The position numbers and the translations under genes are program-made. From Thiothrix subterranea (GTDB lineage Bacteria; Pseudomonadota; Gammaproteobacteria; Thiotrichales; Thiotrichaceae): a DNA stretch of 64,000 nt. This document shows, in pieces, positions 21,939 to 43,890 of the stretch; positions within the stretch are counted from its first letter, which is position 1, and each line of letters begins with the position of its first letter. The notes beneath the pieces are model-generated. The model was not told where the DNA came from, searched no databases, and saw only the letters and a program-made list of their open reading frames with translations. The DNA is taken from positions 2,542,001-2,606,000 of the forward strand of contig NZ_CP053482.1 in the NCBI RefSeq assembly GCF_016772315.1, given 5' to 3'.

Positions 21939-22268
21939 TTAAGCGCGGTACACAACAAAGGATGTGCCTTGGCTTTGGGTGTAGTTGTCGTAACCGATCA
22001 GACGCACGTGGTGGTTGGGGTATTCCCGATGGCACGCTTCGATCTCTGACAGGATGCGGTCAACGCTTTGCTCACCGAACATGGGCAGCTTCCACATGAA
22101 CCAGTAGTACTTGTGGGATCTGGCAGGCTCCACGTGTTCGATAGCCGGGTTCCAGCCCTGTGACACGATGTATTGAATTTGCTGGCGGGTTTGGTCTGCC
22201 GTCAGCGCAGGCAAGTAAGAAAAGGTTTCGTACTTGACGGTTTGTTTGTAATCCTGAGAATCAGCCAT
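21939..22268 (-). CDS. cbbS: RuBisCO form IA small subunit CbbS
   Basis: 109 residues from the ATG at 22268 ([20 protein letters not shown]). The small-subunit pattern [14 protein letters not shown] and the end [20 protein letters not shown] are clear. It sits 18 bases downstream of cbbL with a GGAG site. As in other form IA carboxysomal enzymes the order is cbbL-cbbS-csoS2. Confidence 0.97.
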
Positions 22269-22286
22269 GGTTTGCAACTCCTGTGA

Positions 22287-23705
22287 TTAGCGGTTCTGAA
22301 CATCAAGTTTGTCAACGGTGTCGAACTCGAACTTGATTTCTTTCCATGTTTCCATGGCGATCTTGAGTTCAGGGCTAGACTGTGCCGCTTTGGTGAGGAT
22401 TTCCTTACCGTTACGCTCCAGTTCAACACCACGGTTACGCGCTTCGACGCACGCTTCCAGTGCTACACGGTTAGCCGCCGCACCTGCTGCATTGCCCCAC
22501 GGATGCCCTAATGTACCGCCGCCGAATTGCAGAACCGACTCATCACCGAAAATGTTCACCAGTGCAGGCATGTGCCAGACGTGGATACCACCGGATGCGA
22601 CCGCGAATGCGCCAGGCATTGAACCCCAGTCTTGGTCGAAGAAAATACCGCGTGAACGGTCTTCTGGAACGTAAGATTCACGTAACAGGTCGATCCAGCC
22701 CAGTGTGGAAGCGCGGTCGCCTTCCAGCTTGCCTACTACCGTACCGGTATGCAGGTGGTCGCCACCGGACAGGCGCAGTGCTTTGGTCAAGACGCGGAAG
22801 TGGATACCGTGGTGCGGGTTACGGTCGAGTACCGCGTGCATCGCCCGGTGGATGTGCAGCAACATGCCGTTTTTACGGCACCAGCGAGCCAGACCGGTGT
22901 TAGCCGTCATACCGCCAGTCAGGAAGTCGTGCATGACAATCGGTGAGCCGATTTCTTTGGCAAATTCAGCACGCTCATACATTTCTTCAGGGGAAGGTGC
23001 AGTCACGTTCAGGTAGTGACCTTTGCGTTCGCCGGTTTGCGCTTCTGCGGTTTCAATCGCGTCCTGCACGAACAGGAAGCGGTCACGCCAGCGCATGAAT
23101 GGCTGTGAGTTGATGTTTTCGTCGTCTTTGGTGAAGTCCAGACCACCGCGCAAGCATTCGTATACCGCACGACCGTAGTTCTTCGCCGACAAACCCAGCT
23201 TAGGCTTGATGGTGCAACCCAGCATGGGGCGACCGTATTTGTTCATCTTGTCACGTTCAACCTGAATGCCGTGTGGTGGGCCATTACAGGTTTTGACGTA
23301 AGCAATCGGGAAGCGCACGTCTTCAAGACGCAACGCGCGGATCGCTTTAAAGCCGAATACGTTACCCACCAATGAGGTGAAGACGTTAACGACAGAACCT
23401 TCTTCAAACAGGTCAATCGGGTAAGCGATAAAGGCATAGAAGCAGGCATCGTCGCCCGGTACATCTTCGATCATGTACGCACGACCACGGTAGTAATCCA
23501 TGTCGGTCAGCAAGTCTGTCCACACGGTCGTCCAAGTACCCGTGGAAGATTCTGCTGCGACTGCCGCCGCCGCCTCTTCACGGTCAATACCCGGTTGCGG
23601 GGTGATCTTGAAGCACGCCAGAATATCCGTATCCAACGGGATATAGTCAGGCTGCCAATAGGTTTGCCGGTATTCCTTCACCCCGGCTTCGTATTTCTTT
23701 GCCAT
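22287..23705 (-). CDS. cbbL: RuBisCO form IA large subunit CbbL (carboxysomal)
   Basis: 472 residues. Active-site motifs are intact: [16 protein letters not shown] with the carbamylated Lys, [20 protein letters not shown], and loop 6 GKLEGDR. The Trp/Gln-rich N-terminus [20 protein letters not shown] is typical of form IA. Two ATGs lie in tandem at 23708 and 23705; the GGAG site is six bases from the second and three from the first, so 23705 is preferred. It is the first gene of the carboxysome operon and is expected to be under CbbR control from the operator at 23790-23805. Confidence 0.98.
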
Positions 23706-23770
23706 CATCTTCTCCTTGCAGAAGTTGCTCTAGGGAATCTTGCTCTGACCTCGGTGCATCAGATGGAGCA

Positions 23771-27848: not shown

Positions 27849-27929
27849 GATGCGAATATTCCAAACACTGCCTGGAAAATTGATGAATATTTATACGGGG
27901 TTTGCCGTGGCATACCAAGTGAGCAGCAA

Positions 27930-29081
27930 ATGAGTGCACAAACTATGAAAGGCTATCTGGATCATGTTGAGATTCGCGGTTTCCGCAGCCTCAAAGACGT
28001 ATCGGTTGATCTGTCACCCTTGACGGTGCTGATTGGTGCAAACGGCTCGGGCAAGTCCAACTTCATCAAGTTTTTTGAGCTAATGCGCTGGCTGATGGAC
28101 GGGCGCAGCTTGCGCGAATGGGTAGCACGGGAAGCGGGTGCAGATGATCAGCTTTTCATGGGGCGTACCGTGACGGAAAAATTACGTTGGCAAGTGAGTA
28201 TGCAGGCTAATGATAGCCTTAACCGCTATCAATATGAGGCTGTTGCGCTGGCAACGGGAGCAGATCAGATGGCATTCGCTTCTGAGCATTGCCGTTACAT
28301 ACGAGCGGATAAACAGAATTCAGTCAATGATTGGGTCGATTTGCACGCCCACGCTGATTATTCACAACTATTATTTGCGGCGCAAAACGATAAACTGCCT
28401 GTTCGAGATAAAATGACGGCGAAAGTATTGCTACACTTATTACGACGTTGCCATGTTTATCATTTTCACGATACATCCCGCTATGCCAATCTCAAGAAAC
28501 ACCATGATGTCACTGATAGCGTTTATTTGAATGCTGATGGCGGTAATTTGGCAGCCTTATTATTGAGTCTCAAGGAAAACGAGTTCCCGTATTTTCAGTT
28601 GATAGAACATCAAATCAAACGGGTATTGCCCGCTTTTGATGGTTTTTTATTAGAACCAGAATATGGCAAAGTCATGTTGCGCTGGCGACACAAAGACAGC
28701 GAAAAAATCATGGGTGCGCATTTAACATCGGATGGTTCATTACGCCTATTCTGCCTAATTACGCTGTTTAATCTACCGGATGAACGTTTACCCGACGTAA
28801 TTTTATTGGATGAACCGGAACTAGGTTTGCATCCTTATGCGATTCAGCTTCTGGCAGCCATGATGAAAAGTGTTTCCAAACGCACTCAAATTATTGCTTC
28901 AACGCAGTCGGTCACATTGGCAAATGAGTTGAGTTGGCAAGATATTGTCGTGGTGCAATATGAAAATAATGCCTCGCGCTTGGTGCGTTTGGATGAGCAG
29001 CAATTAAAACCGTGGCTGGAAAACTACGCTATCGGCGACATCTGGCAAAAAAACCTGATCGGGGGTACGCCTGTATGTTGA
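27930..29081 (+). CDS. AAA-family ATPase of the OLD/AbiEii-like type, embedded in the RM locus
   Basis: 383 residues. Walker A is LIGANGSGKSNFIKFFELM near residue 33, and the signature and Walker B region is LLDEPELGLHPYAIQLLAAM near residue 290, followed by QIIASTQSVTLANEL. This is the SMC/RecF-like predicted ATPase family often found with a DUF4276 partner, as here. Such ATPase/TOPRIM-like pairs are common in phage-defence islands. The stop overlaps the start of the DUF4276 gene by seven bases. A later ATG at 27945 is an alternative start. Confidence 0.85.
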   Translation: MSAQTMKGYLDHVEIRGFRSLKDVSVDLSPLTVLIGANGSGKSNFIKFFELMRWLMDGRSLREWVAREAGADDQLFMGRTVTEKLRWQVSMQANDSLNRYQYEAVALATGADQMAFASEHCRYIRADKQNSVNDWVDLHAHADYSQLLFAAQNDKLPVRDKMTAKVLLHLLRRCHVYHFHDTSRYANLKKHHDVTDSVYLNADGGNLAALLLSLKENEFPYFQLIEHQIKRVLPAFDGFLLEPEYGKVMLRWRHKDSEKIMGAHLTSDGSLRLFCLITLFNLPDERLPDVILLDEPELGLHPYAIQLLAAMMKSVSKRTQIIASTQSVTLANELSWQDIVVVQYENNASRLVRLDEQQLKPWLENYAIGDIWQKNLIGGTPVC

Positions 29082-29692
29082 GAATTGCAATCAGTGTGGA
29101 AGGAGCAACCGAACGTGAATTTGTCCAGCAAGTGTTAGTCCCGCATTTCATGATGGCGGGAAAATACCTTCAGGCGGTTGATATTCGTGGCAATGTGAGT
29201 CTCGATAAAATCAAGGCGGAATTGCCGGGATTACTGTATGGCTTTGATTATGTGACTACGCTGTATGATTTTTATGGATTCAAACGCCGTGAGAATCGTT
29301 CTATTGAGGAATTGGAACAAGCCATTCACGCGCTTGTTCCGGCAAGCAAACAAAGCTGTTTCATCCCTTATGTGCAGCAGTATGAATTCGAGGCTTTGCT
29401 ATTCAGTGCGCCAAGCTTGTTGGCTGAACACTTGGGTGTGGCTGATCACGCGGTGCATTTTCAGCGGCTTACCCAAGCCTGTGGTGGTGCTGAAAGGATT
29501 AATGACGGTTTTGATACCTGCCCTAGTCGGCGGATTGTGGCAGTTTTTTCGGCTTATAACAAAAAATTGCATGGGCCAGACATCTGCCAGCGGATTGGTT
29601 TGCCCCAAATTCGGGAAGCCTGCCCGCGTTTTCATTGCTGGTTACAGACGTTGGAAAACCTGTCTGATACCGTTGCAGGAGAAACCCCATGA
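29075..29692 (+). CDS. DUF4276 (TOPRIM-like) protein, partner of the AAA ATPase
   Basis: 205 residues from the ATG at 29075 (MLRIAISVEGATEREFVQQV). The N-terminal V-E-G-x-T-E motif and the following YVTTLYDFYGF and QQYEFEALLFS match the DUF4276 family, judged to be TOPRIM-like with a probable nuclease role; E in VEG and the D in LYDFYG are candidate metal ligands. It overlaps the ATPase gene upstream and the res gene downstream (ATGA), so all three are translated together. Confidence 0.8.
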   Translation: MLRIAISVEGATEREFVQQVLVPHFMMAGKYLQAVDIRGNVSLDKIKAELPGLLYGFDYVTTLYDFYGFKRRENRSIEELEQAIHALVPASKQSCFIPYVQQYEFEALLFSAPSLLAEHLGVADHAVHFQRLTQACGGAERINDGFDTCPSRRIVAVFSAYNKKLHGPDICQRIGLPQIREACPRFHCWLQTLENLSDTVAGETP

Positions 29693-32600
29693 GCGATTTC
29701 CCCCGCCAACTGATCTTAAACGACTGGCTGCTAACGCAATTCGGTGTCACGCAATTTGCTGACCTTTCCGCCGCCTTACACCATAAGGAACTCAGCGGGT
29801 TCACCGAAGAGGGTAATAGCCGTTTTTACGTGCGGCTGGTGGAAACTTTTCCGCAACGTAGCCGCCCGCTGCGTGATGAGCAATTGCGCGATTACGACCT
29901 CAATATCGTGCGTCACTGGAAACGCATCAGCGAAACGCGCAACCACGCGGGGCAAATCCTGTACCCGTTGTATTTCCAGTACATGGCATTGCTGTTCAAT
30001 GAAATTTACCAAGACCGCTATTGGGCAGACCGCGACGCTTTTGCGGGTGAACTCAATACTCACTTACACCGCTTCAACTTAAAGCTGGATAAAAAGCTCA
30101 AACTCGACCCCTATCAGCCGCAGGAACTCAATAAACTGGCATTCTGGATGGCAACGGGCGCGGGTAAAACTTTGCTGATGCACGTCAATATCCTGCAAAC
30201 CCAGCACTACCTGCAACAACACCGCAAACAGCGCGAGATTGAGCAAGTGCTATTGCTGACCCCGAATGCGCGGCTTTCCGAACAACACCAGCGCGAACTG
30301 CGCGATTCGGGTATTAATGCCGATTTCTACACCAAAAACCGCCAGTCTGCCCAAGGCGTGTTGGGTTTTGGGGTGCAAATCCTGCACATCCACCAACTCA
30401 AGGACAAAGACGGCGACACCACGGTAGCGGTTGGTAATTTCGAGGGTAAAAATTTGGTGTTGGTGGATGAGGGGCATCGCGGCGCAAGCGGTGAGGAATG
30501 GCTGGATAAGCGCGAACAGCTTTGCGCGGCTGGCTTTTCCTACGAATATTCCGCCACGTTTGAACAAGCGATTGCCACTGCCGCGACCACCAAAAAAGAC
30601 GGCGTGAGTCAGCAGCAACGCCTGACCCAGCTCTACGCCAAGTGCATTTTGCTGGATTATTCCTACCGCTATTTCTACAACGATGGTTTTGGGAAGGATT
30701 TTCATATCCTCAATCTGGAAAGCAAAGCCTTGGAAGGTTCGCAAGCGCTGTATCTGACGGGGTGTTTACTGGCGTTTTTCCAGCAACGTTTGCTCTATAA
30801 GGATCAAGCTACCCAGATCAAGCCGTATTTGCTGGATAATCCGCTGTGTCTGTTTGTCGGCGGCACGGTGACGGGCAGGGATTTGGATGAGCAGCAAAGC
30901 GACATTTCCCTGATTGTGCATTTCCTCGCGCAATTCCTGAGTGAACAACAGCGCGGCACGTTTGAGCATTATCTGGAACAACTCCTGCACGGGCGTGATA
31001 GCTTGATTGATAAGCAAGATCAGCGCGTGTTTCATGAGCGTTTTAGCTACATCGTCGCGCAATACCACCAGCGAGGCGCGGCAATGCTGTACCACGATTT
31101 GCGCCGCACGGTGTTCAATACTGAACTCGGTGGCTTGCTGCACATTGAAGAACTCAAAGGCACGGATGGCGAAATCGGTTTGCGCGTGGGTGATGCCAGC
31201 GATTATTTCGCGGTCATCAATATCGGCGACACGGGTAAGCTGTGCAAATTGCTGGAGGCAGAGCGCAGCAACCAAGAACGCCCGTTGTATACCGTGAGTG
31301 AAAAAGTGTTTGCGGGTTCGTTATTCCGCGACATTAACACCAGCCGTTCGCGCATTACGCTGCTGATTGGTGCGAAGAAATTCACCGAGGGCTGGAGTTC
31401 ATGGCGTGTCAGCACGATGGGCTTGCTGAATATCGGCAAAAACAAAGGCTCGGAAATCATCCAATTGTTTGGGCGCGGGGTGCGGCTGAAGGGCTATGAT
31501 TTTGGCTTGCAACGCTCCGGTTTCGTGCGTCGTGACGATGAGCAAGCACACCCTGAGTATTTGGCGTATCTGGAAACGCTGAATATTTTCGGGGTACGCG
31601 CCAGTTACATGGATGAGTTTCGTCAATTGCTGGAAGATCAGGGTTTAACTGAGCCTGAGAAACCGGAAACCATTACCCTGAAAGTATTCCCTACCCCTGA
31701 CCAGACAGAATTGCAACGTATCCAGTTAAAATTATTGCGTCCTAGTAAATCCATGCCAAGTTTCAAGCAAGCGGCGCGTCCGGTATTGGCGTTGCTGCCT
31801 ATCGACAGCCCCCACCATGTCAAGGTGGTGCTTGACTGGTATCCGCGAGTACAAAGCAAAGCGGGTAGCAAACAAGGCGCAAACCTGCAACTGCAAGGCA
31901 AACAACACAGTATTAACTTGTACGAAGCGCGGTTTGGGCGGGATCAACTCGCGTTTCTGGACGATGAGCAATTGCTGTTTGAGTTGCTGCGTTTCAAAAA
32001 CGAAAAGGGTTGGCATAACCTGCAAATCACCCGCGAAGCCTTACGCACGGTATTAGCGGATTCGTCATGGTACAAACTCACCATCCCCGAAGAATTTTGG
32101 TCGTTTGGTGCGGGGCATTTCGCACGGGTACAACTGTGGCAGGAAATCGCCACCGTCTTGCTGAAACGTTATTGCGAACGCTACTACGCCTTGAAAAAAC
32201 AGGAGTACGAAGCCCCGTATCTGGAATACCAAAGCGTCGCAACCACCGACCCGAATTTCGTTAGGGAATATCAGGTGGATGTACCAGTGACGGAAATAGA
32301 CCTGATTACTGTTTTGAAAGCTGCTGAAAAGCGTCTGAAAAATGCTAAACGCGCGGATGCCGTGCGTGATTTAACCGGTCACGGTGATTTTCACTTCATC
32401 GGCGCGGATTTTCACCTGTATTTTCCCTTGGTTGAGCTTTCCGGTAAGGGGCATACCGTCAAGGTAAAGCCCGTGCATCTGAATCAGGGCGAGGCGCAAT
32501 TTGTGCGTGACCTGACGCAATGGGTAGACAGCAAGCCCGCTTTGCTGCAAGGGTATGAGCTGTATTTGTTGCGTAACCAATCGAAAAGCGGTGTGGGATT

Positions 32601-32940
32601 TTTTGAAGCGGGGAATTTCTACCCCGACTTTATTTTGTGGGTGAAAAAAGATAATCAGCAATGGATTACCTTCGTTGATCCCAAGGGCTTGCATCACAAT
32701 ACGCAAGGTTTTGAGCATCCGAAAATTCAGTTTGCCAAAACGATTAAGACGTATGAAGCCAAGTATCAACACACGGTCGAGCAGCACATTACACTGAATT
32801 CTTTTATTCTCTCGACGACGAGTAAACATGAGATGAATGGGGCTGAGGACAAGGTTTTTTCCGACCATCACATTCTGTTTCAGAAGGATTACCCGCACCA
32901 TTATGTCGATGACATGATGATGCGGGTATTACGGCCTTAA
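29689..32940 (+). CDS. res: Type III-like restriction endonuclease helicase subunit (Res)
   Basis: 1083 residues. Helicase motif I is MATGAGKTLLMHVNIL near residue 153; motif II is LVDEGHRGASGEEW near residue 260; a later motif resembles TEGWSSWRVSTMGLLNIG and QLFGRGVRLKGY (motif VI). The C-terminus has a PD-(D/E)xK-like nuclease candidate, YPDFILWVKKDNQQWITFVD followed by PKG. Type III Res acts with Mod to translocate on DNA and cleave when two unmethylated sites are in opposite orientation. It ends by overlapping the convergent tsaC gene by four bases. Confidence 0.88.
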   Translation: MSDFPRQLILNDWLLTQFGVTQFADLSAALHHKELSGFTEEGNSRFYVRLVETFPQRSRPLRDEQLRDYDLNIVRHWKRISETRNHAGQILYPLYFQYMALLFNEIYQDRYWADRDAFAGELNTHLHRFNLKLDKKLKLDPYQPQELNKLAFWMATGAGKTLLMHVNILQTQHYLQQHRKQREIEQVLLLTPNARLSEQHQRELRDSGINADFYTKNRQSAQGVLGFGVQILHIHQLKDKDGDTTVAVGNFEGKNLVLVDEGHRGASGEEWLDKREQLCAAGFSYEYSATFEQAIATAATTKKDGVSQQQRLTQLYAKCILLDYSYRYFYNDGFGKDFHILNLESKALEGSQALYLTGCLLAFFQQRLLYKDQATQIKPYLLDNPLCLFVGGTVTGRDLDEQQSDISLIVHFLAQFLSEQQRGTFEHYLEQLLHGRDSLIDKQDQRVFHERFSYIVAQYHQRGAAMLYHDLRRTVFNTELGGLLHIEELKGTDGEIGLRVGDASDYFAVINIGDTGKLCKLLEAERSNQERPLYTVSEKVFAGSLFRDINTSRSRITLLIGAKKFTEGWSSWRVSTMGLLNIGKNKGSEIIQLFGRGVRLKGYDFGLQRSGFVRRDDEQAHPEYLAYLETLNIFGVRASYMDEFRQLLEDQGLTEPEKPETITLKVFPTPDQTELQRIQLKLLRPSKSMPSFKQAARPVLALLPIDSPHHVKVVLDWYPRVQSKAGSKQGANLQLQGKQHSINLYEARFGRDQLAFLDDEQLLFELLRFKNEKGWHNLQITREALRTVLADSSWYKLTIPEEFWSFGAGHFARVQLWQEIATVLLKRYCERYYALKKQEYEAPYLEYQSVATTDPNFVREYQVDVPVTEIDLITVLKAAEKRLKNAKRADAVRDLTGHGDFHFIGADFHLYFPLVELSGKGHTVKVKPVHLNQGEAQFVRDLTQWVDSKPALLQGYELYLLRNQSKSGVGFFEAGNFYPDFILWVKKDNQQWITFVDPKGLHHNTQGFEHPKIQFAKTIKTYEAKYQHTVEQHITLNSFILSTTSKHEMNGAEDKVFSDHHILFQKDYPHHYVDDMMMRVLRP

Positions 32941-33879: not shown

Positions 33880-34869
33880 ATGATGAACCTGCGCCACATT
33901 ACCCTGCACCAGTTGCGCCTGTTTTACAGCGTAGGCAAGCACTTGTCCTTTACTCGTGCGGCGGAAGAATTGCACCTGACGCAACCGGCGGTGTCTATCC
34001 AGATTAAACGCTTGGAGGAGAGTGTCGGTATCCCGTTGACGGAACAAATCGGCAAACGTTTATTCCTAACCGAAGCGGGGCGTGAACTGTTTGAGGCGTG
34101 TCGCGATGTTCTCGACCGCTTGCGGGTGCTCAACGACGACATGATCGGCATGGAAGAAGGGGTGAAAGGCCCTTTGAATATTTCAGCGATTACCACCGCG
34201 AAGTATTTCATGCCGCATTTACTCGGCACCTTCCTCAAGGATTACCCACGGGTGGAGCCACGTCTCACCATTACCAACCAAGCGAAAGTGATCCGCCGTT
34301 TGGAGGATAATCTGGATGACTTGGTGATCATGGGGACGGTTCCCACCAGCGGTAATCTGGAACTCGCCGCTGAATATTTCCTTGATAACCCCATTGTGGT
34401 GATTGCCCCGCCTAATCACCCCTTGGTTGGGGAACGCAACATTACCTTGGAACGCATTGCCCAAGAACGCTTTTTGTCACGCGAAGAAGGTTCCGGCACT
34501 CGCGCTGCCCGCATCAAACTGTTTGCCGAACACGGGTTGGAAGCCAATATTTACATGGAACTTGGCAGTAGCGAAGCCATCAAGCAAGCGGTCATGGCAG
34601 GCTTGGGCATTTCGGTATTGTCGTTTCACAATTTGCGCCTCGAATTGGAAGCGGGTTTGCTCGCCGTCTTGGATGTGCAACATTTTCCGCTCATGCGCCG
34701 TTGGCACGCGGTGCATTTGAAGGGGAAAAAGCTTTCCAATACTTCCAAACGCTTTCTCGATTTTCTGTTGCAAGACGGGGCGCGGATGTGGGAAGACATC
34801 AACGTTAAGCGCTTGCACCTGCCAACCTCGCTTTTGAACCCAAAACTTGAGCCTGATGCCGATGAATAA
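33880..34869 (+). CDS. cbbR: LysR-type regulator CbbR
   Basis: 329 residues. The N-terminal winged helix is [20 protein letters not shown] followed by [20 protein letters not shown], and the effector domain follows from about residue 95 ([20 protein letters not shown]), typical of CbbR proteins that sense reduced pyridine nucleotides or Calvin-cycle metabolites. It is expected to activate cbbL and, from the shared operator, the divergent small membrane gene. Tandem ATGs occur at 33880 and 33883. The end overlaps csoS1D by eight bases, so regulator and shell protein are coupled. Confidence 0.92.
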
Positions 34870-35491
34870 TGTCACTTTGCGCGTGTATTCCTTCATTGAT
34901 TCGTTGCAACCCCAGCTTGCTTCGTACTTAGCGACCTCTTCGCAAGGCTTTTTGCCGATTCCCGGTGATGCCTGTTTGTGGATTGAAGTGGCACCGGGCA
35001 TGGCAGTCCACCGCCTCAGTGACATTGCGCTCAAAGCCACGAATGTGCGCCTCGGTCAGCAGGTGGTGGAACGCGCGTTTGGTTCGATGGAAGTCCACTT
35101 CCGCAACCAAAGTGAAGTGACTTCGGCGGGCGAAGCGGTATTGCGTGAGATTCATGCTGATGTCGAAAACCGCATGGCATGTCGGGTGGCATGGAAAGAA
35201 ATCATCCGTGCCATTACCCCCGACCACGCGACCCTAATCAACCGCCAATTGCGGCACGGTTCGATGTTGTTACCGGGCAAAAGCATGTTTATTTTTGAAA
35301 CCGAACCCGCCGGTTACATTGTGTACGCTGCCAACGAAGCCGAAAAAGCCGCGCACGTCACCTTGGTGGATGTGAAAGCTTACGGCGCATTCGGGCGGCT
35401 GATTATGATGGGCAGTGAAGCGGAAACCGCCCAAGCCATGCAAGCAGCAGAACGCGCCATTGCCAGCATTAATGCACGGGCGACGGCGTAA
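34862..35491 (+). CDS. csoS1D: CsoS1D tandem-BMC shell protein
   Basis: 209 residues from the ATG at 34862, inside the end of cbbR. Two circularly permuted BMC domains: the first with [20 protein letters not shown] and [20 protein letters not shown], the second with [20 protein letters not shown] and [17 protein letters not shown]. This matches cyanobacterial CsoS1D, whose stacked trimers have a large gated pore thought to admit RuBP and related metabolites. It is about 11 kb from the main operon, separated by the defence island. Confidence 0.94.
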
Positions 35492-35515: not shown

Positions 35516-35815
35516 ATGAGCGGAAAATACGAAGGTTTGGATAACGATAAACAATTTGGCATGAGTTCGGTCGGGCGACTGATTCGCGATGCATGGGTGT
35601 TTGGCTTACTGCCCGACACCGAACAATGCGCGGGCTGGAGTGCTGGAATGCTGCAAAACCTGTATGAAAAAGTCCACGCGGAGTGGATGAAATACGGGCA
35701 TTTGCCCAGCCGTTTGCCACCGGAATTGCAGCAGCGGCACAGCGACAGGCATAGTCGTGCGATTCGTGAGGCGAAAGCGAAGGGGTGGGATGCGGAGTTG
35801 GGTGAGGGCGACTAA
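35516..35815 (+). CDS. Uncharacterised 99-residue protein between csoS1D and the LCIB-like gene
   Basis: Not recognised. Starts MSGKYEGLDNDKQFGMSSVG after a GAGG site, contains one Cys, a Trp-rich centre (DAWVFGLL, GWSAGMLQNLYEKVHAEW) and a charged Arg/His/Lys helix toward an acidic end. No membrane segment or signal. Its stop is one base from the LCIB-like start, so the two are cotranscribed and probably coupled. A role in inorganic-carbon handling is inferred only from position. Confidence 0.7.
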   Translation: MSGKYEGLDNDKQFGMSSVGRLIRDAWVFGLLPDTEQCAGWSAGMLQNLYEKVHAEWMKYGHLPSRLPPELQQRHSDRHSRAIREAKAKGWDAELGEGD

Positions 35816-35816: not shown

Positions 35817-36968
35817 ATGTACAACGTCCGTGACAATGTGCAGGCCAGTTTGGGGCATTTTCGCATGGAAAATTACTGGTTTCGTTACAGTAATTTCGTG
35901 CCGCGCTTGTATAACTGGTGCATCGAACTGGGGTTTGAACCGGGGAAAATCATGCCCTCACGGGCGTTTTGTTCGGATGAGAGTCAAGGCTACCCGGTAA
36001 TTTTGCTGGCAAAACATTTTGGGATATTTCCATTCAATCACGGGCAAGTGGGCGGAATTATGGCGTGTGACCGGCATGGCCCGCACGCGCATCACGGTAA
36101 AGATTTGGTGATTGTGCATTCCAGCCACGTCGGTTATGACCCCGAAGCCATGACCTTTGGTTCCTATCGGCGCATCCAGACGGCGAATCATCGCTGTTCC
36201 AGTAACTGCGGCAAAATCCACGCCACGTTGGAATGGTATTTGCGCGAATACGAATTTGCTTGCCAAAACATTTTCGTGGATATGCGGGCGGATCATTGCC
36301 GCTTGACCTTGGACAACCAATATTTGTCGCGTAGCCGGGAACGCAGTTTGGTATTGCATCTGGAAAAAATGGTGGAACACCAGCACGACGGTGAAATGTT
36401 ACCGATTGCCATGCAAAGCACGTCGCGCACGTTCATGGCGACCGACGCTTTTTTTCAGCACATGCGCTGGTTTTTCAACGAAGGCACTGGCAGGCAACCG
36501 CTTGGTGATGCCTTGTTGCCGGAATATTTCACCTACCACACCAGTTTGCGGGAAGACACCGACGGGTCACGCCAATTGGAGCAAAACCTAATCGGCGCAA
36601 TGCCCTGGATTGTGACGTCCGCTGAGCCAATGCTGACGGCAGCGCAAGCCAATACGCAAGCCGAATTCGACCGTGCTTACCGCAGCATCTCACAAGATAG
36701 CGCTTATCGGGGGCGTAATTTGCTCTACGTTGCAGGCTTGCATGTGGATATTTCACCGTCGCCGGAACAGGCGTTTGTGTTAACCAAATTCATTCCTTGG
36801 GCGGCGTATGTGCAATTGAAAAACGGTGAGCGCTATGTGCTGGAACAAGAGGCGCTGTTTGCGCGTTTGCAGGCGTGTAGCGCGGATAACCCGCAGCAAT
36901 TGGGCTTGGATGCGGCGATTCAGATGATGGAAGACGAGGAAGAGATTTACCTGCACTTGCCTTATTAG
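35817..36968 (+). CDS. LCIB/LCIC-family beta-carbonic-anhydrase-like protein
   Basis: 383 residues from the ATG at 35817. Pattern fits the limiting-CO2-inducible LCIB family: a C-x-D-E motif (AFCSDESQGYP, Cys52 and Asp54), a Gly-rich stretch (FNHGQVGGIMACDRHGPHAH), DLVIVHSSHVGY with His101/His104, and RCSSNCGKIHATLEWY with Cys127/Cys131. Cys52, one of the histidines and Cys131 are the candidate zinc ligands. An Arg two residues after the Asp, present in the C-x-D-x-R form of beta-carbonic anhydrases, is absent. The C-terminal 150 residues carry FVLTKFIPWAAYVQLKNGER and are less clear. LCIB proteins hydrate or recapture CO2 near pyrenoids in algae. Here it follows csoS1D and precedes an Mrp-like operon. 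Confidence 0.72.
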   Translation: MYNVRDNVQASLGHFRMENYWFRYSNFVPRLYNWCIELGFEPGKIMPSRAFCSDESQGYPVILLAKHFGIFPFNHGQVGGIMACDRHGPHAHHGKDLVIVHSSHVGYDPEAMTFGSYRRIQTANHRCSSNCGKIHATLEWYLREYEFACQNIFVDMRADHCRLTLDNQYLSRSRERSLVLHLEKMVEHQHDGEMLPIAMQSTSRTFMATDAFFQHMRWFFNEGTGRQPLGDALLPEYFTYHTSLREDTDGSRQLEQNLIGAMPWIVTSAEPMLTAAQANTQAEFDRAYRSISQDSAYRGRNLLYVAGLHVDISPSPEQAFVLTKFIPWAAYVQLKNGERYVLEQEALFARLQACSADNPQQLGLDAAIQMMEDEEEIYLHLPY

Positions 36969-36979
36969 TGTTATCCGCA

Positions 36980-37000
36980 TAAGGCAATCGTGTTGCCTTA
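36980..37000 (+). terminator. Hairpin after the cbbR-csoS1D-LCIB operon
   Basis: TAAGGCAA, five-base loop, TTGCCTTA: an eight-base-pair stem 12 bases after the LCIB-like stop. No T-run follows, so termination may be partial and read-through into the Mrp-like genes is possible. A possible promoter for those genes (TTGTCA at 37018, weak -10 near 37041) lies after it. Confidence 0.45.
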
Positions 37001-37131
37001 ACTAAGCCAATGCGGTTTGTCAAGACAGTTAAGCAATCTTACGTAAATTGGCGGCTATTCAATACGTTTACTATATTAATCCCATTCTTGATTGTTTTTT
37101 TAGGAAATAATCCAGCAGAGGGTAACATGTT

Positions 37132-37620
37132 ATGCCATTGATTATCATCGTATTTATATTGTTGCTGGCACTCTGGTTATTATTGACCAGCGGTGATCTC
37201 GGTTCTTTGCTGGTCGGGTTGCCGTTCATTATGCTGGCGCTGTGGAGTTATCGGTTGCAGCGCCATGCCCCTTATCCCTTAACGTTTTCATTCCTTGGTG
37301 CATTGCGCTTTGCGGTATTTTTCCTGCGCGAATCTTTGCGTGGTGGCTTGGATATTGCGTTGCGGGTGTGGCAACCGCGCGTGTCATTGTCGGTGGCCTT
37401 TTATGAATACCGTCTTATTTTTCCTCAAGGGCCAATCCGCTCGTTTTTTATGTATTGCATCAGTTTATTGCCGGGTACGTTGAGTGTGTGCGTGTCAGAA
37501 AATGGCAAGTTACGCTTGCATGTGCTCGATGATCGTGGCGCGGTAGCGGAAGATTTAGCCCGTTTGGAACAGCGGGTTTGTGATTTGTTTGCATTGCCTT
37601 GTTACAAGGGGGCGCTATGA
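37132..37620 (+). CDS. mrpE: MrpE/MnhE-type subunit of an Mrp-like complex
   Basis: 162 residues, two or three N-terminal membrane segments followed by a cytoplasmic part with FFLRESLRGGLDIALRVW and LPGTLSVCV, as in MnhE/MbhA proteins. GAGGG precedes the start. It is the first of eight overlapping genes in the order E-F-G-B-C-D-D-D, which is the order of the antiporter half of Mbh-type membrane complexes rather than the A-to-G order of classical Mrp operons. Confidence 0.85.
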   Translation: MPLIIIVFILLLALWLLLTSGDLGSLLVGLPFIMLALWSYRLQRHAPYPLTFSFLGALRFAVFFLRESLRGGLDIALRVWQPRVSLSVAFYEYRLIFPQGPIRSFFMYCISLLPGTLSVCVSENGKLRLHVLDDRGAVAEDLARLEQRVCDLFALPCYKGAL

Positions 37621-37877
37621 ATACGGTGCTATTGGCGCTAGTGGTGGTATTAGCCCTGGTGTTACTCATCAGTTTACTGATTATGTTAGCGCGGACGCGG
37701 TTAACTGACCGCTTGTTGGCGGTGCAATTGTTGGGAACGTTGGGTGTCGCGATGTTGCTGGTGCTGGCAGTGGTGATGCAGCAACGGGCGTTTTTGGATA
37801 CCGCCTTGGTTCTGGTGATGCTGGCGGTTGTGGTCACGGCAGTCTTTACCCACCGGCAGCGGGGAGGCAAATCATGA
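37617..37877 (+). CDS. mrpF: MrpF/MnhF-type subunit
   Basis: 86 residues from the ATG at 37617, overlapping mrpE by ATGA. Three predicted membrane helices; the loop LARTRLTDRLLAVQLLGTLG with Arg-Leu-Thr-Asp-Arg is the MnhF signature. Small core subunit of Na+/H+ antiporter-type complexes. Confidence 0.85.
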   Translation: MNTVLLALVVVLALVLLISLLIMLARTRLTDRLLAVQLLGTLGVAMLLVLAVVMQQRAFLDTALVLVMLAVVVTAVFTHRQRGGKS

Positions 37878-38173
37878 TCCTTGATGCGCTTTCCGTGCTA
37901 TTGCTGGTGCTGGGTTTGTTTTTCTTTGTGTCCGGTTTGTTGGGGTTGTGGCGGTTTCCCGATACGTTTGCGCGGCTTCATGCCCTGACTAAGGCGGATA
38001 ATTTGGGCTTGGGGTTGGTGATGACCGGCTTGCTATTCCAAGTACCCGATGTGTTGTGGGCGATTAAATTCGTCTTGGTGTGGTTGCTGGCATTGGTGGC
38101 GAGTGCGGTGAATGCGCATTTGATTGCGGTATTCCTGCACCGGCAACAGGAGGGACACGATGAATCTGCTTGA
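37874..38173 (+). CDS. mrpG: MrpG/MnhG-type subunit
   Basis: 99 residues starting at the ATG overlapping mrpF. Three membrane helices and the conserved LWRFPDTFARLHALTKADNL, in which the R-F-P-D-x-x-x-R-x-H-A core marks MnhG. It overlaps the next gene by 14 bases. Confidence 0.88.
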   Translation: MILDALSVLLLVLGLFFFVSGLLGLWRFPDTFARLHALTKADNLGLGLVMTGLLFQVPDVLWAIKFVLVWLLALVASAVNAHLIAVFLHRQQEGHDESA

Positions 38174-39098
38174 TGGCTTATGGGGCATTTTGGATCTGTT
38201 GCTGGTGGCGGTGTTGTTGTTATTGGCAATGGCGGCGGTACTGAGCAGTGATCGGCGGCGTAGCATGATGCTGTTTATCGTGTTTGGTTTGGTATTGGCG
38301 TTGGTGTGGGCGCGGTTACACGCCCCGGATATTGCACTGGCGGAAGCCGCGATTGGGGCGGGGTTGGGCGGGGCGTTGTTAATGGCAACCTTGCGGCGCG
38401 ATACGCATCAGCAGACCGATCAGTTTCCACAACACCCTGTGGTGTTATGGGGCGCGGGCGTGTTGGTAATGGTACTGGGAACGATGATTGCGTGGGGCTT
38501 GTTCTCGGTATTGCCCACGGTGGAACAAACCTGGCGCAAAGGCGCGGCGGTCGATGCGCACTTGGCATTCAGCGGGGTTAGCCACCCGGTAACAGCGGTG
38601 TTATTGAATTTCCGAGCATGGGATACCTTGTTGGAATTGGCGGTGTTGTTGGCGGCCATTTTGGGGATTCGTGCCTTGGGGTATGTGCGTTCGGCGTATG
38701 TGACGGAAGCCGCATTCAGCCAATTGGCGGTGTGGTTGGTGCCCTTATTGATTCTAATGGCGGGTTATGTGCTGTGGGCGGGAGCGCATTCACCGGGTGG
38801 AGCATTTCAGGCGGGGGCATTGCTGGCGGGGGCGGGCATTTTGCTGCGCTTGGCGGGGTATTCCCATGCGGGGTTGCCGACGACACGTTGGTTGGTACGT
38901 TTGGGCTTGGTGGCAGGAACGGGTGTGTTTTTGCTGGTGGGTTTGGGGCTGTTGGGGTGGGGGCAGGGTTTCCTGCATTACCCGGTCGCTTATGCAAAAT
39001 GGTGGATATTATTGATTGAAATGCTGGCTACGGTGTCGATTGGGATGACGCTGACGTTGGCTTTCATGGGCGGGATACCGCAGAAGGAGGCAGCGTGA
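38160..39098 (+). CDS. mrpB: Fused MbhD-MbhE-MrpB-type subunit
   Basis: 312 residues. Residues 1-80 match the DUF4040/MbhD part (ARLHAPDIALAEAAIGAGLG), 90-190 an MbhE/MrpA-C-like segment, and 195-312 an MnhB domain with AGYVLWAGAHSPGGAFQAGA, its signature loop. In Mbh complexes these are separate proteins; in Mrp they belong to MrpA and MrpB. About nine membrane segments. The stop shares one base with the mrpC ATG. Confidence 0.82.
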   Translation: MNLLDGLWGILDLLLVAVLLLLAMAAVLSSDRRRSMMLFIVFGLVLALVWARLHAPDIALAEAAIGAGLGGALLMATLRRDTHQQTDQFPQHPVVLWGAGVLVMVLGTMIAWGLFSVLPTVEQTWRKGAAVDAHLAFSGVSHPVTAVLLNFRAWDTLLELAVLLAAILGIRALGYVRSAYVTEAAFSQLAVWLVPLLILMAGYVLWAGAHSPGGAFQAGALLAGAGILLRLAGYSHAGLPTTRWLVRLGLVAGTGVFLLVGLGLLGWGQGFLHYPVAYAKWWILLIEMLATVSIGMTLTLAFMGGIPQKEAA

Positions 39099-39397
39099 TG
39101 GCGGGGTTAAGTGCAATCAATCCGCAGTTTTTGTATGTGTGCGCTGGCATTTTCCTGTTCGCCATTGGTTTGTGGGGAACTTGGTTACATGCCCATTATG
39201 TGCGCAAAATTATTAGCTTGAATGTGATGGGTGCGGGGGTGTTTCTGACGCTGATCGCGGTGGCGTATCGCGGTGAAAATCTGCCCCCCGACCCTGTGCC
39301 TCATGCCTTGGTGTTGACCGGCATTGTGGTGGCTGTCAGTGCAACAGCGTTGGCATTGGTGATTATCCGCCGTTTGGAGGATGCAACCGATGAATGA
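39098..39397 (+). CDS. mrpC: MrpC/MnhC (NuoK-like) subunit
   Basis: 99 residues. The ATG at 39098 is seven bases from AGGAGG; a GTG three bases upstream is in frame but less well placed. Three membrane helices with FLFAIGLWGTWL and NVMGAGVFLTLIAVAYRG, the NuoK-type pattern. NuoK-like subunits line part of the ion path in complex I and its relatives. Confidence 0.86.
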   Translation: MAGLSAINPQFLYVCAGIFLFAIGLWGTWLHAHYVRKIISLNVMGAGVFLTLIAVAYRGENLPPDPVPHALVLTGIVVAVSATALALVIIRRLEDATDE

Positions 39398-40844
39398 AGC
39401 TGCGAGTGTCGTTTGGGTAATTAGCCTGCCGTTGCTGGGCGCATTGCTGGCAACGGTGTGGCGGCAACGCGCGGCGACGATTGGTTGGATCAGCAGCGCA
39501 TTAACGGCGGGATGCGCGGTCTGGCTGTTGTGGGTGGTGCAACACGCTGGAGTGCAACAACTGGCGCTGGGTGGCTGGGAAATCGGTCTGGGCATCAGCT
39601 TGTACGCGGATGGTTTGGCGGCTGTCATGGTGCTGATGAGCAGTCTGGTGGTGTTGGGGTGCAGTGTGTATGCGCGGCAGTATTTTCGGGCGCAGCGTCA
39701 GCATGAATTGTTTTGGCCGTTGTGGTTGTTGTTAGCCACGGCGTTGAATGCGTTGTTTTTGGCGGGTGATTTGTTCAATGTGTATGTCACTTTGGAATTG
39801 TTGGGAATTTCAGCGTCGGCACTTACCGCGTTAGGGGCGAAACGGGCGGCATTGCGGGCAGCCTTGCGCTATCTGGTGGTGGGGCTATTGGGGTCGATGC
39901 TGTATCTAATGGCTATCACCTTGCTGTATGCCGCTTACGGCACACTGAACGCTGTGCAAATTGCCGAGGCATTGCAAGTTAACCCCTTGGGCTGGGCAGC
40001 GCTGTTGCTGATGTTGGCAGGGTTGGCGTTGAAAATGGCGTTATTCCCGCTGCATTTCTGGTTGCCTCCAGCGCATTCTAATGCGCCCGCGCCGGTGAGT
40101 GCGGCATTATCGGCGTTGGTGGTGAAAGCGGCATTTTATTTGGTGGTACGGCTGTGGTTTGAGGTGTTTGCACCGTTGACAACGCCACTGCTGGCGAATG
40201 TTTTGGGCGCATTGGGTGCAATGGCAGTGTTGTGGGGGTCTTGGTCAGCGTTGCGGGCAGAACGCTTGAAATTATTGGCGGCGTATTCCAGTGTGGCGCA
40301 ATTGGGCTATTTGGTGATGTTTTTCCCGCTGTTGATGGTGTTGGAGGGCGAAGCACGGCACTGGTTGTTTGGGGCAATGGTGTTGTTTGCGCTGTCTCAT
40401 GCGTTTGCGAAATCGGCATTGTTTTTGGCAGCGGGGATTTTGATGCAATACGCCGGGCATGACCGTATCCGCGAATTGAGTGGTACGACGCAAGCCTTGC
40501 CATTGACCACGTTTGTGATTGCGTTGGCGGGCATTGCCTTGGTGGGCTTGCCACCGAGTGGGGCGTTTCTGGGTAAGTGGTATTTGTTGGATGCGGCGTT
40601 TAAGACGGGGCAATGGTGGTGGGTGCTGGTCTTGGTGGCGGGGTCGTTATTGGCAACCGCTTATGTGTTCCGTTTGTTGGGGCACGCTTTCGGGCATTTG
40701 CCAGCGGTTAAGCGCCCGATTGTGGCGGCTACGCAGGAAATGCCTGCCTTGGCATTGGCATTGCTGGCAACCTTTGGGCTGGGCTTAGGGGCAATGAGTC
40801 TGTGGTCATGGTTGGCGCACACTGGCACAGGGGCAGGGCTATGA
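39390..40844 (+). CDS. mrpD: MrpD-type antiporter subunit (first of three)
   Basis: 484 residues; the ATG at 39390 is nine bases from GGAGG. About 14 membrane helices of the proton-conducting Proton_antipo_M family. The key TM5 glutamate is present (VTLELLGISASAL, Glu136) and the TM7 lysine in LALKMALFPLHFWLPPAH; a second Lys appears in ALVVKAAFYLVV. It should be a working H+ or Na+ channel half. It overlaps mrpC and the next gene. Confidence 0.9.
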   Translation: MNEAASVVWVISLPLLGALLATVWRQRAATIGWISSALTAGCAVWLLWVVQHAGVQQLALGGWEIGLGISLYADGLAAVMVLMSSLVVLGCSVYARQYFRAQRQHELFWPLWLLLATALNALFLAGDLFNVYVTLELLGISASALTALGAKRAALRAALRYLVVGLLGSMLYLMAITLLYAAYGTLNAVQIAEALQVNPLGWAALLLMLAGLALKMALFPLHFWLPPAHSNAPAPVSAALSALVVKAAFYLVVRLWFEVFAPLTTPLLANVLGALGAMAVLWGSWSALRAERLKLLAAYSSVAQLGYLVMFFPLLMVLEGEARHWLFGAMVLFALSHAFAKSALFLAAGILMQYAGHDRIRELSGTTQALPLTTFVIALAGIALVGLPPSGAFLGKWYLLDAAFKTGQWWWVLVLVAGSLLATAYVFRLLGHAFGHLPAVKRPIVAATQEMPALALALLATFGLGLGAMSLWSWLAHTGTGAGL

Positions 40845-42364
40845 ACGAGTTATTGAATGTTCTCACCGAAGCGCTGGGAAAAAATTTACCGCTGTGGATT
40901 GTGCTGAGTTCGTTTAGCGTCGGTTTGGTGATTTTCTTTGTGCAGGAAGGCAGCCATCGCTTACGCACCACCTTGAATTTGCTGGCGGCAGTGGTGAAGT
41001 TGGCATTGGTTGGGGTCTTGCTGTGGGGGGTGTATCACGGGCAGGTGTACGAAGTGCGCTGGGTGATTGCGCCCAATCTGGAATTGCTATTGCACGCCGA
41101 TGCATTGTCGATGTTGTTTGTGACCTTATCTGCCTTGCTGTGGTTGGTGACAACGGTTTATGCGATTGGGTATCTGGAGCATTCCCCGCACCGCAGCCGC
41201 TTCTTTGGGTTTTTCAGCTTGTGCGTATCGGCAACCGTGGGTTTGGCGTTGGCGGGCAATCTGGTGACGTTTGTGATGTTTTACGAGTTTTTGACCTTGG
41301 CGACTTACCCCTTGGTGGCGCACAAAGGCTCGCATGAAGCCCGCAAAGCTGCGCGTTTGTATTTGGCTTATACCTTCACGGGTGGATTGCTGTTGCTGGT
41401 GGCAGTGGTGTGGTTGAAGTCGATTGCCGGGCCGTTGACGTTTGTGCAAGGGGGGATTCTGGATACCTTGCCTGCGGAAACGCACAGCGCCTTGCGTTGG
41501 ATTTTCTTGCTGATGATCGTGGGTCTGGGGGTCAAAGCCGCTTTGGTGCCGTTGCACGGTTGGTTGCCCAAAGCAATGGTTGCGCCCGCGCCGGTCAGTG
41601 CGTTATTGCACGCGGTGGCGGTGGTGAAAGCAGGGGCATTTGGGATTGTGCGCGTGGTTTACGATGTGTATGGGGTGGAGTTTGCCGCTGTCTTGGGCGT
41701 ATTAGTGCCATTAGGAATAGTGGCGGCGTTCACGATTGTGTACGGATCGACCTTGGCATTGTTTCAGGATGAGTTGAAAAAACGTTTGGCGTATTCGACG
41801 GTGAGTCAGGTGTCTTACATCATTTTGGGGACGGCAATCCTAGGCCCGTTGGCGACCGTGGGCGGTATTGTGCATTTGGTTCACCAAGGCTTGATGAAAA
41901 TTACCTTGTTCTTTGCCGCCGGTAATTACGCGGAAACCTTGGGGATTCACCGCGTCAGTCAAATGAACGGGGTGGGCAAACGAATGCCGCTAACCACGTT
42001 GGCATTTACCTTGGGGGCGTTGGGGATGATTGGGATTCCACCAATGGCGGGGTTTATTTCCAAATGGTATTTGGGGTTGGGGGCGTTGGAAGCAGGGGTA
42101 TTGCTGTGGGTAATGCCGGTGTTGATTGCCAGTAGCTTGCTGAACGCGGCGTATTTTCTGCCCATTTTGTACCGTGCGTGGTTTTTGCCTGCTGACCCTT
42201 GGCCAGACGAACACATTAAGGCGCAGCGTTGGGAAACGCATGGCATGTTGTTGTGGCCGCCCGTGATTACCGCGAGTTTGGCGTTATTGGCAGGCTTGTT
42301 CGCGTCTTTGCCGTTTAGTCCGTTGGAGTGGGCGCAATTGATCACCGCTAGGGAGTACAAATAA
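40841..42364 (+). CDS. NuoL/MrpA-like antiporter subunit (second of three)
   Basis: 507 residues, overlapping the previous gene by ATGA. Membrane antiporter-like protein of the complex I family. TM5 glutamate present (VMFYEFLTLATYPL, Glu149); the TM7 region is GVKAALVPLHGWLPKAMVAP with its lysine, and HAVAVVKAGAFGIVR follows. The nearest relatives in layout are NuoL/NuoM/HyfB and DabB-type subunits, but no DabA gene accompanies it. Confidence 0.87.
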   Translation: MNELLNVLTEALGKNLPLWIVLSSFSVGLVIFFVQEGSHRLRTTLNLLAAVVKLALVGVLLWGVYHGQVYEVRWVIAPNLELLLHADALSMLFVTLSALLWLVTTVYAIGYLEHSPHRSRFFGFFSLCVSATVGLALAGNLVTFVMFYEFLTLATYPLVAHKGSHEARKAARLYLAYTFTGGLLLLVAVVWLKSIAGPLTFVQGGILDTLPAETHSALRWIFLLMIVGLGVKAALVPLHGWLPKAMVAPAPVSALLHAVAVVKAGAFGIVRVVYDVYGVEFAAVLGVLVPLGIVAAFTIVYGSTLALFQDELKKRLAYSTVSQVSYIILGTAILGPLATVGGIVHLVHQGLMKITLFFAAGNYAETLGIHRVSQMNGVGKRMPLTTLAFTLGALGMIGIPPMAGFISKWYLGLGALEAGVLLWVMPVLIASSLLNAAYFLPILYRAWFLPADPWPDEHIKAQRWETHGMLLWPPVITASLALLAGLFASLPFSPLEWAQLITAREYK

Positions 42365-43890
42365 TGTTGCAACCCGTGCTGCTGGAGTTACCGTTTTTAT
42401 TGCTGTTAGCGCCCTTGTTACCGCTGTGCTTTGCCTTGGTGGGGAATGACCGTATTGGGCAATGGCTCTTGCCGGTGGCTGCATTGCCTGCGTTAGTCGC
42501 AGCGTTTGTGTTGCCAGTGGGAACGTCGGTGGCGTTGCCTTGGGTATTATTGGGAGCGCAATGGGGGCTTGATGCTACAGGGCAGGTATTTTTACTGGTG
42601 ACAGCACTATTGTGGTTGTTAGCAGGTTTGTACAGTGTGAGTGGTACGCCTGCGGGGTCAAGTTGGTGGCGTTTTCGGGTGTTTTTCCTGTTGACCTTGA
42701 GCGGCAATGTGTTGTTGGTTATTGCGCAGGACATGGGGAGCTTTTTTCTGGGTTTTGCCTTAATGGGGCTGGCGGCGTATGGGTTAATTGCGCAACAGGC
42801 GTCGGTGACGACGCGCCGTGCTGGGCGCATTTACCTGATTTGGACGGTGTTGGGTGAGGTGTTGTTGTTTGCCGGTGCAGTGTTCACGGCGGGGGCGGTG
42901 GGGAGTGTGTATTTCAGTGAGGTGGTGGGCAAGGATTTACCCCTCGCTGCGGTGATATTGGTGACGCTGGGCTTGGGAATTAAGGTGGCATTGCCGGGTT
43001 TGCATGTGTGGTTGCCGATTGCGCACGGTGCAGCCCCTCCGGCGGTGTCGGCATTGTTGAGCGGCGTGATGGTGAAAGCGGGGATACTGGGTTTGGTGCG
43101 GTTTCTGCCAGCGGGTGCAGCCAGCACGGTGTGGGTGGCAGAGTGGTTGGTGTGGCTGGGATTGGTGGGCGCGTTTTACGGGGTGGTGTTTGGCTTGCGG
43201 CAAACCGCGCCGAAAGTGATTCTGGCGTATTCGACCATGAGTCAGTTGGGGGTGTTGACTTTATTGACGGGATTGGTATTGCAAGCCCCTGCGGATGCGA
43301 TGTTGGCAATGGCGTTGTTATTGTATGTGGCACACCATGCTTGGGTGAAAGGGGCATTATTCCTTGGGGTGGGCTTATTTAAGCAAACCTTGTCTTGGTG
43401 GTTATTGGGTGTGCTGGTGGTCTTGGCGTTGGTGTTGATCGGCGTGCCATTGACCAGTGGCGCGTTGGCAAAAGGCAGTGTGAAAGCGGCATTGCCAGCC
43501 GATTGGCAGCACTTGGCGCTGGGTTTATGGCTGAGCAGCTTGGCAACCACTTTGCTGATGGGGCGCTTTGTGTGGAGTTTGTGGCGTTATCGCCGCCAGC
43601 ATGAGGCTGTATCCAGCCATCACACCAGCACTTCCCCCGGTCTGACACAATGGTTGGGGTGGGCTATTTTAGTGGAATGGGTGTTGTGGTGGCCGTTTCT
43701 GTTTGCGCTACCGGCGTTTAAGTGGTGGGATGTCGTGCCGATTTTGCTGGGCTTGGGGATGGTTGCTTTGGCGTTATTGCCGCGTATTCCAGCGGGGGAT
43801 GTGCCGGTGTTGTTGGCGCACGCTGGCTACCGTGGGTGGCATTGGGTGCGGCAATCGCGCAGTAAGCATAGGCATTATTTATCTGATTGA
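42364..43890 (+). CDS. NuoL/MrpD-like antiporter subunit lacking the TM5 glutamate (third of three)
   Basis: 508 residues, first base shared with the previous stop. Family membership is clear from GIKVALPGLHVWLPIAHGAA and LLSGVMVKAGILGLVRF. At the TM5 position where the two paralogues have Glu, this protein has Ala132 (FFLGFALMGLAAYGLI aligned with FVMFYEFLTLATYPLV). It is also the most divergent of the three and its basic tail RQSRSKHRHYLSD is unique. It may be structural or have a different coupling role. It ends the operon; the 106-base gap that follows holds no gene. Confidence 0.85.
   Translation: MLQPVLLELPFLLLLAPLLPLCFALVGNDRIGQWLLPVAALPALVAAFVLPVGTSVALPWVLLGAQWGLDATGQVFLLVTALLWLLAGLYSVSGTPAGSSWWRFRVFFLLTLSGNVLLVIAQDMGSFFLGFALMGLAAYGLIAQQASVTTRRAGRIYLIWTVLGEVLLFAGAVFTAGAVGSVYFSEVVGKDLPLAAVILVTLGLGIKVALPGLHVWLPIAHGAAPPAVSALLSGVMVKAGILGLVRFLPAGAASTVWVAEWLVWLGLVGAFYGVVFGLRQTAPKVILAYSTMSQLGVLTLLTGLVLQAPADAMLAMALLLYVAHHAWVKGALFLGVGLFKQTLSWWLLGVLVVLALVLIGVPLTSGALAKGSVKAALPADWQHLALGLWLSSLATTLLMGRFVWSLWRYRRQHEAVSSHHTSTSPGLTQWLGWAILVEWVLWWPFLFALPAFKWWDVVPILLGLGMVALALLPRIPAGDVPVLLAHAGYRGWHWVRQSRSKHRHYLSD

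Follow-up and report, generated by a model that had tools for sequence, protein, structure and literature searches.

Beside the carboxysome genes of Thiothrix subterranea, a gene for a carbonic-anhydrase-like protein of the LCIB type is followed by eight genes for an Mrp/NuoL-type membrane complex. Do the two form one machine, in which ion flow drives the hydration of CO2, or are they neighbours that serve the cell separately? The question concerns a 64,000-nucleotide stretch of the genome (contig NZ_CP053482.1, positions 2,542,001 to 2,606,000; hereafter the window), for which a preliminary description had proposed the former. We think it probable, if by no means secure, that the LCIB-like protein acts as a soluble enzyme of the LCIB type on CO2 and bicarbonate, cooperating with exchangeable inorganic-carbon uptake modules, and that the Mrp-type complex is separate from it. 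Our results do not support a dedicated vectorial carbonic anhydrase built from LCIB and Mrp. The LCIB genes of relatives adjoin several different carbon-uptake systems, and the Mrp antiporter is therefore more likely a neighbour of LCIB than its dedicated partner.

Neighbours of LCIB-like genes in other genomes

Neighbouring genes within 10 kb of LCIB were compared with identical queries at 80 named loci (the best 80 of 259, a set that leans towards close relatives), at 25 further loci and in 20 arbitrary regions, the latter being stretches from four genomes at hand-picked rather than randomised positions. Among the named loci, SulP genes were found near 14, Mrp genes near 8, DabA genes near 7 and carboxysome (cso) or cbb genes near 6. 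One or more of these four classes was present at 28 of the 80 named loci and 9 of the 25 further loci, as against none of the 20 arbitrary regions (p 7e-4), and since 28 of 80 stands against 0 of 20, the neighbourhood is above chance. LCIB has a tendency to be found close to inorganic-carbon genes.

The neighbours differ from one relative to another. In Thiothrix UBA5583, the nearest row to the window protein on the LCIB tree (85% identical, support 94), LCIB is flanked on one side by DAB genes, from which it points away, and on the other by cbbO; the 21-kb stretch contains no Mrp gene. Cocleimonas and two relatives (L062, L063, L064) have LCIB directly after a cbbR homologue at the carboxysome operon, without Mrp; a cbbR homologue also adjoins LCIB at L080, where the arrangement of Mrp, cbbR-LCIB and cbbO/cbbL is repeated. 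In two nearly identical Nitrospirota loci (L120:958-9744, L138:3-9744), the LCIB-like gene comes after a SulP gene, and genes with NuoH, NuoC/D and NuoB Pfam matches as well as NuoL-like genes lie beside it. The SulP gene is 37% identical to a type found at L098, L107 and L109, where it adjoins both LCIB and Mrp. The best solved relative of this type is 6ki1 (E 4.9e-117), labelled by its depositors as a low affinity sulfate transporter, which we take to be BicA. CitMHS-type permeases, one of them with TrkA_C domains, were seen near LCIB at 14 of the 80 loci (e.g. L098:3291-6770) and are possible anion or inorganic-carbon carriers.

The LCIB-like gene of Thiothrix caldifontis DSM 21228 is 99% identical to that of the window, with flanking genes alike. 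The Mrp count of eight includes L067, at 99% to the window's own, and L133, where the matches are to a 1174-aa complex-I-like protein. Among the remaining six, L107 is closely related to L109; L046, where LCIB adjoins a fragment of D type, is not counted by the Mrp rule. A second type of Mrp, ordered E-F-G-MbhD-B-C-D-D-small-D, with a small protein of 84-118 aa and a third D of 561-587 aa, is present at L080, L093, L098, L107, L109 and L118. MbhD and B share one frame at L080, and the sequence of L109 ends before E-G. The small protein is conserved between the second and third D (L098:11763-12038, L107:7970-8233, L080:5543-5899), and one member scanned against Pfam gave no matches.

Partner exchange was followed on an LCIB tree of 76 rows (L050 left out), 25 of which carry one hand-assigned partner label each. 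The partner class changes at least nine times among these 25 rows, compared to a mean of 12.0 for shuffled labels (8 of 200 shuffles equally low, 9 of 200 on repeat); with the Mrp+SulP loci relabelled SulP, there are 7 changes and a shuffled mean of 9.7 (13 of 200 equally low). The partner of LCIB is mildly clustered on the tree and changes frequently nonetheless. We place the window protein in a long LCIB subfamily that is associated with carbon uptake in chemoautotrophs and changes its neighbours.

Seen from the Mrp side, the tie is equally loose. A search at E 1e-40 places the third NuoL-like subunit of the window (D3) in 21 of 369 genomes, and LCIB was beside the window-type Mrp in none of 20 D3 stretches inspected (together accounting for 22 of the 24 matches in other genomes; L223, 13 kb, and L232, 3 kb, are short, and small Mrp subunits are present in 17 of the 20). 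The third D of type 2 occurs in 44 of 219 genomes, and in two of these (G102, G215) LCIB lies no more than 6 kb away from it on its contig. Co-occurrence of LCIB and a third D at the genome level is not significant, neither for the window type (3 of 21, p 0.16) nor for type 2 (6 of 44, p 0.10). Separation of LCIB from Mrp in most relatives had been named beforehand as evidence against a dedicated complex, and with Mrp near only 8 of 80 loci this is what we find.

Fold and conserved residues of the LCIB-like protein

The window protein scores 22.4 bits against PF18599, for which the curated cut-off is 25; among 274 genomes (own included; canonical L139 left out), 5 of 11 subfamily members are over the cut-off and 6 under it. 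A profile comparison with canonical bacterial LCIB gave a probability of 8.6% and E 0.0039, the motifs aligning as expected, and a PDB sequence search with family profiles returned no LCIB chains. A first structure model, built from 20 rows (pLDDT 72.6 around the zinc site; Foldseek best E 0.019), was replaced. It is the predicted structure that makes the LCIB relationship firm, since the window protein is predicted to adopt the LCIB/beta-carbonic-anhydrase fold; the list of structure matches was used solely for the LCIB match and cannot exclude other folds.

Conservation was assessed in an alignment of 77 rows, made up of the window protein, 68 of the 80 named loci and 8 of the 25 further loci (L102, with a stop codon, the doubtful L094 and ten others, near duplicates or by choice, were left out). 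The preliminary description had singled out Cys52-x-Asp54, His101/104 and Cys131. C52 and D54 are each kept in 76 rows with one gap, and H104 and C131 in all 77, whereas position 101 is Gln in 55, His in 20 and another residue in 2, so that His101 is found in the window protein and is no family trait. The Cys/His motifs follow the order seen in solved LCIB proteins, and C52/D54, H104 and C131 are presumably the zinc-ligand positions. The predicted structure, a model without metal, retains these ligand residues and in this respect does not speak against the earlier proposal; zinc binding and catalysis, in whichever direction, would be expected from such a site. The protein would be cytosolic; no membrane segment or hydrophobic finger is present (best 19-residue Kyte-Doolittle mean 1.14).

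Compared to algal LCIB/LCIC, PtLCIB4 (PF18599) and 6kfs (an LCIB_C_CA domain protein), the window protein is about 130 residues longer than the solved proteins of 240-270 aa, resembles them weakly in sequence, as its PF18599 score indicates, and has its gene placed among chemoautotroph carbon genes.

Gene organization of the window

All frames from cbbR to D3 are open, and the order cbbR, csoS1D, unknown gene, LCIB-like gene, E-F-G-B-C-D-D-D is as described earlier. The names cbbR, cbbO and csoS1D combine a family match with position.

33880..34869, plus strand: LysR-type regulator, cbbR by position (Pfam LysR_substrate and HTH_1)
34847..35491, plus strand: csoS1D/CcmP-like BMC shell protein (Pfam BMC 28.5 bits; NCBIfam CcmP 229 bits, cut-off of 340 not reached)
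35516..35815, plus strand: 99-aa gene without assigned function, 1 nucleotide from its stop to the LCIB-like start
35817..36968, plus strand: LCIB-like protein, 383 aa, long divergent LCIB subfamily (C52, D54, H104, C131)
37132..37620, plus strand: mnhE/mrpE (PF01899)
37599..37877, plus strand: mrpF (PF04066)
37874..38173, plus strand: mnhG/mrpG (PF03334)
38160..39098, plus strand: MbhD-MnhB fusion, B subunit, 312 aa (PF13244 at 18-80, PF04039 at 189-291)
39095..39397, plus strand: mrpC/NuoK-like, NuoK/MnhC type (PF00420)
39381..40844, plus strand: D1, MrpD/NuoL-like (PF00361; E139, K218, K249, K399)
40844..42364, plus strand: D2, MrpD/NuoL-like (PF00361; E148, K231, K262, K407)
42364..43890, plus strand: D3, third NuoL-like (PF00361; A132 in place of the glutamate of transmembrane helix 5; K207, K238, K370)
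22287..23708, minus strand: cbbL of the divergent carboxysome operon (open reading frame and RuBisCO match)
21939-22277, minus strand: cbbS of the same operon (open reading frame and RuBisCO_small match)
19391-21916, minus strand: csoS2 of the same operon (open reading frame and CsoS2_M match)
17822-19378, minus strand: csoSCA of the same operon (open reading frame and CsoSCA_C match)
13156-15591, minus strand: VWA protein interpreted as cbbO, same operon (open reading frame and VWA match)
11381-13159, minus strand: SulP gene of the same operon (open reading frame and SulP match)

A gap of 163 nucleotides separates the LCIB-like stop from mnhE, and a single transcript of the LCIB-like gene and mnhE-D3 does not follow from this layout; a promoter scan of the gap gave 2 promoter-like matches, with 3.6 expected by chance. 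The 99-aa gene had no matches in Pfam and NCBIfam searches, and homologues of 37-50% identity occur at carboxysome loci of other genomes (L189, L202, L212) and at L056. The roughly 24-33 kb part of the window between the carboxysome operon and cbbR is filled by the genes of a 1062-aa DNA methylase and of a 1083-aa protein of type III restriction-like character, both within 24660-32940, and by others.

The preliminary description was right that the window holds no dabA, and DabA (PF10070) is thus not part of the operon, yet a PF10070 search found two copies about 0.3 Mb away in the genome (C1:2232774-2240545). They belong to a dab cluster with five NuoL/M/N-like genes (C1:2225000-2244900, L057), the extra M and N proteins of which reappear beside DabA at the LCIB loci L084, L091, L096, L116, L121 and L132. 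Elsewhere in the genome (C1:138000-148000, L261), a beta-carbonic anhydrase gene directly precedes two SulP genes.

The RuBisCO family is over-represented in genomes with LCIB (20 of 25, p 0.003), of which 25 of 26 were kept and G075, at E 6e-4, left out. LCIB as a carboxysome-specific protein was considered and rejected, csoSCA being present in 4 of the 25, no more than in others. csoSCA is commoner in genomes with the window-type D3 (10 of 20, compared to 57 of 348; p 9e-4, counted without the own genome and uncorrected for kinship). Going by 20 inspected carboxysome loci of LCIB-free genomes, neither LCIB nor the window-type Mrp is a usual neighbour of carboxysome genes.

The eight-gene membrane complex and alternative explanations

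Subunits E, F, G, B, C and D of Mrp (CPA3) are all present, with Pfam matches above the cut-offs. The operon has no long A protein among its genes and carries the MbhD-MnhB fusion and extra D-type proteins instead; because MrpA is missing, we use the name Mrp-type rather than Mrp. Elsewhere the genome encodes a regular Mrp, whose subunits are a 940-aa A' along with C, D, E, F and G, which makes the window complex an additional one.

The most serious alternative, to which we give a limited chance, is that the Mrp-type complex expels Na+ by means of the proton gradient, that Na+-coupled bicarbonate carriers use this Na+, and that LCIB merely equilibrates the imported carbon. The joint presence of LCIB, Mrp and the 6ki1-related SulP at L098, L107 and L109 agrees with such a circuit. 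Precedents appear in published work (PMC4390856; PMC7784846; PMC13249358): an Mrp-like cluster is upregulated in an ndhR mutant, as are high-affinity uptake genes, and its role is tentatively seen in providing a sodium gradient for bicarbonate uptake (PMC4390856), and in a Nitrospira bicA lies in a cluster with an Mrp that has additional D-like genes (PMC7784846). However, the genome of T. subterranea has no SbtA and no close BicA, the SulP next to cbbO would be no more than a candidate for sodium coupling, and DAB2 is described as proton-driven (PMC13144422).

The preliminary proposal, that the second or third NuoL-like subunit is a docking site for LCIB and that ion flow drives one-way hydration of CO2, appears unlikely. 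In its favour, LCIB adjoins two different Mrp types, that of the window and that of the six other loci; L080 repeats the arrangement with cbbR and cbbO/cbbL; and the own genome lacks SbtA or a close BicA to use a sodium gradient. D3 also has no glutamate in transmembrane helix 5 (TM5), like DabB2 of H. neapolitanus, where the NuoL residue is replaced by Ile151 (excerpt of PMC13144422). D1 and D2 keep all residues checked. TM5 glutamate loss as a mark of an LCIB-docking subunit was rejected: the 20 D3 relatives, from LCIB-free stretches, have all lost it too, so that the loss is not tied to LCIB. Their TM8 lysine is kept in 17 and their TM12 lysine in 19 of 20 (one unaligned). In DAB2, the TM12 lysine position is filled by a glutamate on the finger of DabA2 (excerpt of PMC13144422), whereas K399, K407 and K370 are kept in D1, D2 and D3, and D3 is therefore not a vacant half-channel for a finger, which LCIB in any case lacks. 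The two DabB proteins of the own genome have Thr in this column, where their alignment is uncertain, and Glu in the TM5 column, unlike the DabB2 of PMC13144422. To judge from these sequences, the likeness of D3 to DabB2 is confined to a single trait, a clade feature. The scarcity of Mrp near LCIB (8 of 80), the absence of LCIB from the 20 other window-type places and the DAB genes beside LCIB in the nearest tree row likewise argue against docking.

A broader version of this idea, equally improbable to our minds, would make chemoautotroph LCIB a third, independently evolved class of energy-coupled CO2 hydration, its carbonic-anhydrase-fold module docking on, and swapped among, NuoL-like machines such as three-D Mrp, the extra DAB-cluster subunits and the complex-I-like modules of Nitrospirota. 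Least probable is a chance landing of an Mrp-type operon with a general pH or salt role alone by the carboxysome block of one Thiothrix lineage, which would suit the 0 of 20 result, the 163-nucleotide gap with promoter-like matches no more frequent than chance would give, and window-type Mrp near 1 of 20 inspected carboxysome loci (G223), but not the recurrence of Mrp near LCIB in other lineages (L080, L093, L098, L107, L109, L118, L052) or the excess of csoSCA in genomes with the window-type D3.

Discussion

We favour a model in which the LCIB-like protein would be a soluble zinc enzyme with the LCIB/beta-carbonic-anhydrase fold, serving either to convert CO2 and bicarbonate into each other or to capture CO2 that leaks. 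In T. subterranea its gene lies in the cbbR/carboxysome block, and the protein may work with whichever uptake module the lineage has, be it DAB, a BicA-like SulP or Mrp, as an obligatory subunit of none. The eight-gene cluster would encode a separate three-D, MrpA-less Mrp-type complex, most likely for cation/proton exchange, that balances pH and sodium and thereby aids carbon uptake.

Several observations weigh against a soluble enzyme with exchangeable partners. A free cytosolic carbonic anhydrase is expected to short-circuit a carboxysome-based mechanism, and for this reason some control of the enzyme would be needed in T. subterranea. Its activity is read from sequence and predicted fold. 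The tree shows some clustering of partner labels, as 8-9 or 13 of 200 shuffles are as low. At 52 of the 80 LCIB loci none of the four gene classes is nearby, partly from early contig ends, and no single class differs significantly from the 20 controls (lowest p 0.066, SulP). LCIB genomes are not enriched for the carboxysome (csoSCA in 4 of 25, p 1.0), and at 20 carboxysome loci in LCIB-free genomes DabA was near 9, window-type D genes near 1 (G223) and LCIB near none. Finally, the own genome has no SbtA, and the identity of its SulP proteins to the BicA-like type is only 24-27%, so that neither offers an obvious consumer of a sodium gradient.

The arrangement recalls several known systems. With DAB/DAC (DabA-DabB; MpsAB) it shares a carbonic-anhydrase-fold protein near NuoL-like and RuBisCO genes, but the protein is of the LCIB rather than the DabA family, dabA is lacking in the window, no NuoL-like subunit there has the TM12 change of DabB, and DAB itself is found elsewhere in the genome. 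The concept of a carbonic-anhydrase-like protein beside complex-I-like subunits is that of NDH-1MS and NDH-1MS' (CupA and CupB with NdhD3/F3 and NdhD4/F4); unlike these, the eight genes match Mrp/NuoK/NuoL-type models alone, in a search that included no Cup model. Extra D subunits and an irregular order are shared with the group 3 Mrp of cyanobacteria (slr2006-slr2013, NdhD5/D6; Aphanothece mrp), the genes of which have been connected with inorganic-carbon limitation in publications. The window differs from these in its three D subunits, MbhD-MnhB fusion, lack of MrpA, gene order, and adjoining LCIB and cbbR.

No description of an LCIB-Mrp pairing or of LCIB common to DAB, BicA-like SulP and Mrp neighbourhoods came to light in our searches of open-access literature, and in a term search neither LCIB nor Mrp occurred in PMC10880623 or PMC9164163. 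Several inorganic-carbon uptake systems are already known from chemoautotrophs, and an LCIB-type protein found in such varied neighbourhoods would add to this picture. If the protein is catalytic, it will be of interest to learn how carboxysome-bearing cells tolerate a cytosolic carbonic anhydrase, and whether such LCIB enzymes are subject to some control or have their activity coupled to an ion flux.
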